The notes below the pieces were generated by a model. The model was not told the origin of the DNA. It worked only from the letters and a program-made list of their open reading frames with translations, and ran no database searches. A program made the translations under genes and the position numbers. Positions 6,334 to 44,715 of a stretch of 64,000 bases of DNA are shown piece by piece (the stretch's first letter is position 1; each line of letters opens with the position of its first letter). This DNA is from Dyadobacter fermentans. GTDB taxonomy: Bacteria > Bacteroidota > Bacteroidia > Cytophagales > Spirosomataceae. The stretch is taken from positions 1-64,000 of the forward strand of contig NZ_JAHXBN010000006.1 in NCBI RefSeq assembly GCF_019924045.1. Reading direction: 5' to 3'.

Positions 6334-7425
6334 ATGTCGTTAAGTCCCCGTTTCATTGCCGTCATTCTGGCGTTCCTGATATCCCTCATTACCACCACGT
6401 TCCTCGCATTTGTGGATGGGGTTTCAAAAGGGATGCTGTTCGTTTCGGCTATTTCCTCCTTCATTTCTTCCTTTTTCCTCGTGCTTTATGCCGTCGACAT
6501 TCTGGTTTTCCGCGAGGTGAACAAAATGTACCGGACTATCCACAAGCTGAAAATGCGGGATTTCAATATGGCCCCACGCAAAAAACTGATCAGGGAATCC
6601 AACCCGCTGAAAACGATCAATGACGAGATTTTTGTTTATGTAACCAAAAAACAGAAGGAAATCGATGAGCTGAAAAAGCTCGAATTGTTCCGTCGGGAAT
6701 TCCTCGCCGACGTATCGCACGAGTTCAAAACACCGATCTTCGCCGCACAGGGATTTATCCACACGCTCCTGGACGGTGCGATGGACGATGAAAATGTACG
6801 TGAACGCTTTTTACGCAAAGCTGCCAACAACCTCGACAGCCTCGACGTGCTCGTGAAGGACCTTCTCGTATTATCGCAGATGGAAACCGGAGATATTAAA
6901 ATGAATATCGTCCCCACCGACCTCCGCAAGCTTACCCTCAGCATTTTCAGCCGTCTCGAACACATTGCCAAGAACCGCAACGTGACCTTGAAAGTCAAAC
7001 CGGACGACATGCCAGAAGTGTGGATAAAAGCCGATGCCGACCGGATGGAGCAGGTAATGCTGAATCTGATCGAGAATGCGATTAAATATGGTAACGAGAA
7101 TGGCAAGGTGATCGTCCATTTCAGCGAGAGCAAAAAATACATTGAAGTGGAGGTAAAAGACAATGGTCCGGGCATTCCGCACGAGCATTTGAACCGTATC
7201 TTCGAGCGTTTTTACCGCATCGACAAGAGCCGCAGCAAAGAAATCGGCGGCACCGGTTTGGGACTTGCCATTGTTAAGCATATATTGAACGCCCACGACA
7301 CGAAAATCGCTGTGATGTCGAAGCCGGACAAGGGGACAACGTTTTCTTTCAAGCTCGAAAAAGCGTATCACCAGCAGTTGCCGGAAACAAAAACGGACGA
7401 TGTCGTCAATCAATTGAATCCATAA
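6334..7425 (+). CDS. PhoR-like sensor histidine kinase (orphan)
   Basis: This 363-residue membrane kinase has two close membrane segments (about residues 8-28 and 34-57) with almost no periplasmic domain between them. A short linker and a HisKA domain follow, with phospho-acceptor His129 in ADVSHEFKTP. The ATPase domain shows the N box ENAIKYG near 247, KDNGPGI near 276 and GGTGLGL near 303. It resembles the PhoR/WalK-type kinases of Bacteroidota. No response-regulator gene lies beside it, so its partner is elsewhere. With so little outside the membrane, it may sense something in the membrane or through a partner protein. A direct repeat and a hairpin lie in its upstream region. Confidence 0.92.
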   Translation: MSLSPRFIAVILAFLISLITTTFLAFVDGVSKGMLFVSAISSFISSFFLVLYAVDILVFREVNKMYRTIHKLKMRDFNMAPRKKLIRESNPLKTINDEIFVYVTKKQKEIDELKKLELFRREFLADVSHEFKTPIFAAQGFIHTLLDGAMDDENVRERFLRKAANNLDSLDVLVKDLLVLSQMETGDIKMNIVPTDLRKLTLSIFSRLEHIAKNRNVTLKVKPDDMPEVWIKADADRMEQVMLNLIENAIKYGNENGKVIVHFSESKKYIEVEVKDNGPGIPHEHLNRIFERFYRIDKSRSKEIGGTGLGLAIVKHILNAHDTKIAVMSKPDKGTTFSFKLEKAYHQQLPETKTDDVVNQLNP

Positions 7426-7454
7426 TCAATTTCTAACACCATAAACCATTATCC

Positions 7455-7754
7455 ATGTTTATCCACAACGTATTCTTCTGGTTGAAAGAGAAGGACAACG
7501 AAGAGGCCAGAGCCGCCCTGCTTGCAGGTATCAAATCACTTGAAGCGATCGAGTCTATCGAATCTGCGTACATCGGCCCTCCTGCCGCCACCCGCAGACC
7601 GGTTATCGACGCCACTTACGATTTCGCAGAGATTCTGATTTTCAAGGATGAGGCTGCGCACGACGTTTACCAGGTTCACCCTTTGCACAAAAAATTCGTG
7701 GAAGAATGCGCACATCTTTGGGAGAAGGTCGTGATCTACGATGTTGAGGCATAA
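7455..7754 (+). CDS. Dabb family (stress-responsive A/B barrel) protein
   Basis: This 99-residue protein opens with IHNVFFWLKEKDNEEARAAL and ends with HPLHKKFVEECAHLWEKV, the two conserved segments of Dabb dimeric alpha/beta barrels. Members of this fold act in plant stress responses and in small-molecule cyclisation, but most bacterial ones have no assigned function. It begins 29 bases after the kinase stop and may be co-transcribed with it. The putative DnaA-box cluster starts 13 bases after its stop. Confidence 0.88.
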   Translation: MFIHNVFFWLKEKDNEEARAALLAGIKSLEAIESIESAYIGPPAATRRPVIDATYDFAEILIFKDEAAHDVYQVHPLHKKFVEECAHLWEKVVIYDVEA

Positions 7755-7766
7755 AGCCTAATATTT

Positions 7767-7875
7767 GTTAACAAGTTATCCACACCGAAAATGTGCATAA
7801 CTTGTTAACAACTTTCGATAACACAGATTATCAGGCATTTAGCCTACATTTAGGCATTATCCACACTGTGGATAA
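7767..7875. other. Cluster of four perfect DnaA boxes; candidate replication origin
   Basis: Four exact 9-mers of the form TTATnCACA occur within 100 bp: TTATCCACA at 7776-7784, TGTGCATAA (inverted) at 7792-7800, TTATCCACA at 7857-7865 and TGTGGATAA (inverted) at 7867-7875. They form two inverted pairs. The first pair lies in an 18-bp inverted repeat (7767-7784 and 7792-7809, one mismatch). The second pair makes a 19-bp perfect palindrome. Between them is an AT-rich stretch with GATAA and TTATC half-sites at 7817-7832. This is what a bacterial origin or a DnaA-titrating/regulatory site looks like. dnaA itself is not in the window; Bacteroidota origins need not be next to it. Confidence 0.6.
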
Positions 7876-7962
7876 CTTTTTCCACCGCCTGTAATTTCTC
7901 CTTCTTCGGCACTATCCTTCTATCCAATTCGTTCTAGAACCAGTACAAAACGAACTAGAACC

Positions 7963-8259
7963 GTGAAAAAGAACAGTGTCTTGCTGTCGGTCATCATTAC
8001 GCTGATCGCAGCTATTTCGATTTCATCCTGTACCTATCGTTCCTACGAACCGGGCTATGATTATGGCTACCGGCATGGTTACAGGCACTATCACGCTCCT
8101 CCGCCACCACCGCGTGTGGTAGTGGTGACGCCACCGCCGCGAGTCATACATGCCGACCGCTACAAGTACCGCCGTCATGATAACCGTGCTTACCGTAAGC
8201 AATACCGTCACAACGACCATTACGGAAACAATGGCCGCCATCGCGGGCACAGACGATAA
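7963..8259 (+). CDS. Small His/Arg/Tyr-rich lipoprotein
   Basis: This 98-residue protein uses a GTG start. Residues 1-22 form a lipoprotein signal peptide with a lipobox ending SISSC, so Cys23 should be lipidated. The mature part is Tyr/His-rich (YGYRHGYRHYH), then has a proline run with PPPPP and PPP, and finishes with a strongly basic His/Arg tail ending HRGHRR. Such short basic lipoproteins are common in Cytophagales and uncharacterised. The His clusters could bind metal or anionic polymers, but this is a guess. It lies right after the DnaA-box cluster. Confidence 0.72.
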   Translation: MKKNSVLLSVIITLIAAISISSCTYRSYEPGYDYGYRHGYRHYHAPPPPPRVVVVTPPPRVIHADRYKYRRHDNRAYRKQYRHNDHYGNNGRHRGHRR

Positions 8260-30113: not shown

Positions 30114-30117
30114 CAGC

Positions 30118-30205
30118 ATAATCTCAAGGGGTGCCCCACCGAACGGGCTGAGATCATACCCATTTAACCTGATCCGGGTAATGCCGGCGTAGGGAGAGAA
30201 AGCCG
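30118..30205 (+). ncRNA. TPP riboswitch (THI element)
   Basis: The conserved parts of the thiamin pyrophosphate aptamer are all present in order: AAGGGGTGCC near 30126, GGGCTGAGAT at 30146-30155, AACCTGATCCGGGTAATGCC near 30167 and GCGTAGGGA near 30188. It lies 75 bases before the TonB receptor start. In Bacteroidota it should shut off expression when thiamin pyrophosphate is plentiful. The end of the element is approximate. Confidence 0.95.
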
Positions 30206-30280
30206 GATCGGCTGTTTTCTGTTAACATTTTATCGAACTTTCTGATAGGTGGCCCCTGCCTGTTGTAATTATTGATCGCA

Positions 30281-44630: not shown

Positions 44631-44704
44631 CGGGATGTAGCGCAGCCCGGTAGCGCACTAGCATGGGGTGCTAGGGGTCGCAAGTTCGAATCTTGTCATC
44701 CCGA
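44631..44704 (+). tRNA. tRNA-Pro (anticodon GGG)
   Basis: The 74-base sequence folds as a tRNA: acceptor CGGGATG with CATCCCG (44697-44703), discriminator A44704, anticodon stem CTAGC/GCTAG with the loop ATGGGGT giving anticodon GGG, and a T-arm with GTTCGAATC. The 3' CCA is not encoded. It reads CCC/CCU proline codons. Confidence 0.95.
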
Positions 44705-44715
44705 CATTGAAAATC

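Follow-up and report, generated by a model that had tools for sequence, protein, structure and literature searches.

The site of four DnaA boxes in the 64-kb stretch of Dyadobacter DNA analysed here (the window) does not coincide with the chromosome origin, and its sequence features lead us to propose, with about even confidence, that it is a datA-like chromosomal locus for the control of DnaA, in which a bent spacer would loop bound DnaA molecules. A sequence-only reading of the same DNA had taken this site, hereafter W, for a candidate chromosome origin and, failing that, for a DnaA-titration or regulatory locus; it is the fallback that gains support, from the conservation of the site, its near-fixed geometry and its occurrence in single copy.

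Boxes and palindromes of the site

The window belongs to a genome of 8.0 Mb in 173 contigs, and for the protein of the Dabb-domain gene next to W the match in the closest named relative, D. jiangsuensis, is 99% identical. The sequence-only reading was right that four exact DnaA boxes are present, the pattern TTATNCACA matching exactly at 7776(+), 7792(-), 7857(+) and 7867(-). Their crowding is also beyond chance, as had been claimed: the window contains nine matches to this pattern against 1.93 expected, and at least nine were seen in 0/100 shuffles. Seven of the nine fall within 6755-7875; the exact boxes at 6755, 7019 and 7459 lie within the histidine-kinase and Dabb genes upstream of W, and a box at the position of 6755 is present again in many relatives. 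Across the whole genome 82 exact copies of TTATCCACA are listed, and in this listing a density of at least three per 1 kb is reached at two places only, namely W and a denser box cluster on contig C121, hereafter O. Perfect DnaA boxes by themselves do not mark an origin. W is non-coding, being situated between the Dabb gene and a 98-aa open frame, and together with these neighbors it comprises the following features:

7455..7754, + strand: Dabb-domain gene (PF07876), the upstream neighbor, which adjoins the site in Dyadobacter
7765..7775, + strand: left outer arm TTGTTAACAAG, an 11-bp perfect complement of 7801-7811
7776..7784, + strand: DnaA box I, TTATCCACA, the left half of the inverted pair, an exact match
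7792..7800, - strand: DnaA box II, TTATGCACA, the right half of the inverted pair, an exact TTATNCACA at a 7-bp gap from box I
7801..7811, + strand: right outer arm CTTGTTAACAA, complement of the left arm, with a tendency to covary across genomes
7801..7866, no strand: spacer of 66 bp from box II to box III, a spacing pattern in Dyadobacter genomes
7829..7841, + strand: IHF-like motif TATCAGGCATTTA, 9/9 to WATCARNNNNTTR
7857..7865, + strand: extra DnaA box, which forms a 19-bp palindrome with box III and is exact in some species only
7867..7875, - strand: DnaA box III, reading TGTGGATAA on the + strand, an exact match conserved in the genus
7963..8259, + strand: 98-aa open frame, the downstream neighbor, without a Pfam match

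Boxes I and II and the 11-bp arms on each side of them make up an extended palindrome at 7765-7811, with one mismatch between the two boxes. What had been described as an 18-bp inverted repeat does consist of inverted boxes, but these are two 9-bp boxes over a 7-bp gap and span 25 bp. Similarly, the 19-bp palindrome at 7857-7875 is present here, but conservation in the genus is found mainly in its right half (7867-7875), and the supposed AT-rich middle corresponds to the 66-bp spacer, which is 64% A+T and of nearly fixed length in the genus. Between W and the 98-aa frame, at 7890-7962, there is a conserved GGCACTAT followed by TCGTTTT..AAAACGA in many species, and these motifs resemble a promoter or an operator belonging to the frame. 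Elsewhere in the window are a TPP riboswitch at 30117-30213, upstream of an 818-aa frame, and a tRNA-Pro (GGG) at 44631-44705.

Conservation of the pair, its arms and its spacer

The exact inverted pair, TTATNCACA-N7-TGTGNATAA, is found in 74 of 200 genomes of the family, with one copy in each, and is missing from the other 126; the reversed control is found in 1/200. Dyadobacter (g1) has the pair in 29 of 34 genomes and genus g5 in 31 of 33, the further carriers being g3 (4/4), g16 (2/2), g19 (2/2), g25 (1/1), g30 (1/1), g21 (2/6), g2 (1/5) and g9 (1/5), with 0 in the remaining 26 genera. A test free of pattern bias is provided by 32 Dyadobacter loci, which were picked by their Dabb protein and not by their boxes: 29 of them have the exact pair beside the Dabb gene, and among the three that lack it L028 has one base changed in box II, while L031 and L033 have boxes at other spacings. 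Two of the five Dyadobacter genomes missed in the family count (G033 and G021) likewise show a one-base change. The conservation beside the Dabb gene that the sequence-only reading had raised is thus real within the genus. Outside Dyadobacter the presence of a Dabb gene does not predict that of the pair, which is found in exact form in 0/7 such Dabb loci (L035-L041).

In a sample of the order, exact pairs outside the family were confined to f12, where all belong to genus g47 and some genomes have two, and to five f19 genomes. In genomes of one f12 genus (loci L276-L291) there are often one or two exact pairs whose gap is likewise 7 bp, but whose surroundings differ and whose arms are not extended. 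None of the 20 out-of-family pair sites fetched has outer arms longer than 3 bp, and tblastn searches with 16 neighbor proteins (Dabb, ADH, bioF-like and others) gave no match within 1.5 kb of them. The f12 and f19 pairs were therefore not counted as the same element. Two g5 genomes contain a further inverted TTATCCACA pair, whose gap is 16 bp (G131:C1:1454373-1454406 and G188:C1:1667006-1667039).

In the window the pair starts 22 bp 3' of the Dabb gene. To describe its context in other genera, 20 of the 45 non-Dyadobacter genomes with the pair were fetched, and gene families were assigned by scanning three ADH and two bioF-like members and by BLAST clustering for the rest. The pair lies 7-82 bp past the 3' end of a gene of the ADH (alcohol dehydrogenase) family in 16 of these 20 loci, and a bioF-like gene is on one side in 12. 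In L221, L226 and L227 it is placed between Dabb and ADH; these loci join the Dyadobacter context to the others, which suggests that the Dyadobacter and non-Dyadobacter pairs derive from one ancestral site. Exceptions are L217, with the bioF-like side only, L224 and L225, where the pair is between an OmpA-type gene and serS, and L220, where it falls inside a glycosyltransferase gene and is probably a chance occurrence. The pair is kept while its neighbors (Dabb, ADH, bioF-like) differ between genera.

The two facing boxes usually lie in a longer palindrome, within which the sequence of the 7-bp gap is free to vary, with 48 distinct gaps among 50 loci. Outer positions 2-12 were compared in 30 Dyadobacter rows (the window included; L028, L031 and L033 dropped), where 268 of 330 are complementary against a mean of 239 when the arms are shuffled between genomes (0/5000 shuffles), and in 20 other loci, where 110 of 220 are complementary against a shuffled mean of 81 (2/5000). 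In a further set of 35 of the 50 sequences, hand-picked to reduce near-duplicates and leaving out L220, 82.4% of the cells pair against 71.3% in shuffled versions, two-sided changes are found in 92 cells against 42.8 (sd 4.8), and the covariation score is 0.255 against 0.097, with slid versions reaching at most 0.099; the box columns of this set are hardly able to vary, having been selected by pattern. The signal is weaker in the two measures that relatedness distorts least: 12 pairs differ on both sides against 10.3 (14/500 shuffles), and further pair types number 37 against 33.0 (41/500). The outer arms tend to covary across genomes, and this could mean either that a hairpin or cruciform matters or that the arms are copied onto each other via template switching.

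The third box is at a similarly constrained position. As TGT[G/T]GATAA it begins at a distance of exactly 66 bp from the pair in 27 Dyadobacter rows (the window included), and 1-bp shifts are seen in L015 and L017 (67 bp) and in L019 and L026 (65 bp). The full layout boxI-N7-boxII-N66-boxIII, with at most one mismatch, is present in 38 of 48 Dyadobacter genomes and the reversed control in 0; G018 is excluded from the 38, its sole match having three mismatches and reading the palindrome from the other side. Among the ten other genomes, G017, G018, G040 and G045 represent 1-bp shifts by coordinates, and in six (G015, G047, G014, G030, G042 and G046) the layout is absent beyond a 1-bp shift, the first two being the genomes of L033 and L031 mentioned above. 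Dyadobacter is the only genus in which a third box at 66 bp was seen. In the IHF consensus WATCAAnnnnTTR, which otherwise follows PMC10380432, R takes the place of a final A. When all offsets and strands are compared across 27 loci, the spacer agrees best with WATCARNNNNTTR at a single constant position (29-41), with a mean of 7.52 of 9 (range 5-9), and 1/1000 column shuffles is equal or better; this IHF-like motif is short and degenerate, the window itself having 9/9. A search with E. coli IhfB found no IHF/HU gene in 2.05 Mb of Dyadobacter DNA, a sample that is far from whole genomes and in which the Dabb query used as control worked.

The chromosome origin and the place of the site

O, located at C121:5496-5853 of the genome to which the window belongs (L042), packs five exact TTATCCACA and eight TTATNCACA into 0.36 kb and adjoins a conserved gene of 538 aa that matches no NCBIfam family. 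It is built of the same box sequence as W and lies near the skew switch described below. Of 48 Dyadobacter genomes that have the neighboring gene, 30 loci are listed, and in these the number of TTATNCACA close to the gene ranges from 3 to 9. In the g3, g5, g9 and g19 loci checked there is no such box cluster beside this gene.

For GC skew, three closed relatives were sampled in stretches of 20 kb (40 in G011, 20 each in G043 and G006), several of those around O containing masked N. In G011 (6,967,790 bp) the skew is negative in 25/25 stretches from 1.40 to 4.60 Mb, which span W at 4.1606 Mb, and positive in the other 15/15, with the switch at ~4.62 Mb and O at 4.6335 Mb. In G043, with O at 3.102 Mb and W at 3.58 Mb, it is negative in 11/11 stretches up to 3.105-3.125 Mb, one stretch just beyond O still being negative, and positive in 9/9 from 3.15 Mb. 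In G006, where O is at 5.512 Mb and W at 6.013 Mb, it is negative in 9/9 stretches at 2.7-5.535 Mb, zero at 5.56 Mb and positive in 7/7 at 5.65-6.6 Mb, with the switch 20-140 kb beyond O; its three stretches at 0-1.8 Mb show mixed signs. Each of the three relatives has its switch at or within ~140 kb of O and about 360-480 kb from W, and none shows a sign change at W. O is therefore likely to be the oriC of Dyadobacter, and W is not. The claim that W is the chromosome origin could draw on its four exact boxes and moderately AT-rich spacer, but the uniformly negative skew across W in G011 and the switches near O and far from W in G043 and G006 leave it next to no probability. W is moreover not the densest box cluster of the genome; skew and box density were both among the grounds on which the sequence-only reading itself would have given up the claim, and we reject it.

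W and O are 438-618 kb apart in 11/11 Dyadobacter genomes with both on one contig, corresponding to 6.4-9.0% of the genome (mean 7.2%), with genome sizes rounded for 8 of the 11 and with O marked in G014, G024, G032 and G046 by its gene alone, the boxes not being seen. Judged by strand and order, G029 and G046 carry W on the opposite arm, and in G024 it is flipped. As a control, Dabb paralogues were found 16.9-42.2% from the origin marker (12 hand-picked placements in 10 of the 11 genomes). Because these paralogues also keep a band, though a broad one, the distance to the origin is weak evidence of selection and does not serve as proof of it; gene order alone keeps rough distances. The distance between the pair and the main TTATCCACA cluster in four g5 genomes is 0.7, 1.9, 4.1 and 11.6%, with a noisy skew check in G186 only; this genome also has a second group of three boxes, 194 kb away from the pair.

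Proposed DnaA control and other readings of the site

What is understood of DnaA control outside the origin comes largely from E. coli and B. subtilis. Like W, E. coli datA is non-coding, is near but outside oriC and has several DnaA boxes; it also has an IHF site, to which the IHF-like sequence motif at a fixed offset in W may correspond. In work on datA, the spacing of the IHF site to the essential boxes is reported to matter and a loop between DnaA at boxes 2 and 3 is postulated (PMC10380432), the bending by IHF being thought to gather DnaA for ATP hydrolysis (PMC10380432, PMC10950094). The E. coli control regions are further reported to hold relative distances from oriC (PMC4585315, PMC5010248). 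We scanned DARS1, DARS2 and datA of MG1655 for boxes with at most one mismatch. Unlike W, datA has other gene neighbors and no 7-bp-gap inverted pair among its boxes with 0-1 mismatch. The core of DARS1 and DARS2 opens, as W does, with two facing boxes (+ then -), but their boxes are at +0, +14(-) and +26(-) whereas those of W are at +0, +16(-) and +91(-), and this spacing excludes membership in DARS. With a layout that differs from both datA and DARS, W is thus by structure a member of neither. The B. subtilis clusters resemble W in being DnaA boxes outside oriC, but there are several of them, whereas W is one palindromic element. At the 'double DnaA box' targets of E. coli, DnaA is reported to bind paired boxes with strict spacing (PMC11317965); those boxes are 2-3 bp apart, in contrast to the inverted boxes of W, which are 7 bp apart.

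W could also be a plain titration sink, which would lower free DnaA by binding it and leave its nucleotide state unaffected, and this would agree with consensus boxes in non-coding DNA near the origin, with the early initiation reported after loss of six B. subtilis clusters (PMC5295017) and with the accumulation of E. coli DnaA boxes towards oriC (PMC12371093). We nonetheless consider it unlikely: the 3-4 boxes of W are few compared with the 82 exact TTATCCACA listed genome-wide, and titration alone does not require a fixed 7-bp gap and a near-fixed 66-bp spacer. It appears more doubtful still that W acts as an operator by which DnaA controls a neighboring gene, namely the 98-aa frame in Dyadobacter and the bioF-like gene in g5. 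W is indeed upstream of the former, and the pair is near the start of the latter in the 8 g5 loci fetched, but the promoter-side neighbor varies among genera, and no promoter is expected at L221, L226 and L227 because the pair there lies between the 3' ends of convergent genes. Changing and convergent neighbors thus disfavor a transcription operator.

Two further readings invoke the folding of the palindrome. Were it to act in RNA, as a terminator or 3' stabilizing hairpin of the Dabb and ADH messages, one could point to the strong predicted RNA fold of 7755-7885 (z -9.4), to the usual position of the pair 3' of a gene, to the terminator-like score of 7857-7875 and to the tendency of the arms to covary. 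This seems improbable, however, given that the DnaA consensus is retained by the inner 9-bp arms in 29/32 of the Dyadobacter loci picked by their Dabb protein while the gap and outer arms vary, that each family genome carrying the pair has a single copy, that no T-run follows the pair in the window and that in L224 the pair adjoins a separate inverted repeat with a T-run. In the A-site of R6K a DnaA box is situated in a hairpin stem, and the predicted single-strand DNA fold of 7755-7885 (z -9.1) similarly places both boxes in one stem; yet a DnaA-dependent helicase-loading hairpin or backup origin of this kind is, in our estimation, slightly less probable again, as the orientation of the site to the fork seems variable (the locus in G024 being flipped by strand) and the skew does not change at W.

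On the preferred reading of W as a datA-like control locus, DnaA would occupy the inverted pair and box III, an IHF/HU-type protein would bend the 66-bp spacer, and the resulting loop would put the DnaA molecules in contact. By analogy with E. coli datA, the most likely outcome would be faster hydrolysis of DnaA-ATP, or the holding of DnaA, soon after passage of the fork, by which oriC would be kept from firing again; the direction of the effect, datA-like inactivation as opposed to DARS-like reactivation, is a guess. Hda carries a Bac_DnaA domain. The genome to which the window belongs has one match to this domain, and hence there is no sign of an Hda homologue. With somewhat less confidence than we attach to the datA-like reading, we suggest that W may be a Bacteroidota element for the control of DnaA activity that is independent of E. 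coli datA and DARS, with the arms acting as a hairpin or cruciform and the Dyadobacter spacer looping in a third DnaA. Among the open-licence papers listed in our literature searches, a DnaA-control locus of Bacteroidota is described in no title or abstract opening. Besides yielding a likely oriC for Dyadobacter, the analysis would, if the independent element is real, point to a DnaA timing switch in bacteria without sign of Hda, and a DnaA locus of this kind in Bacteroidota would suggest that loci controlling DnaA from outside the origin evolved more than once.
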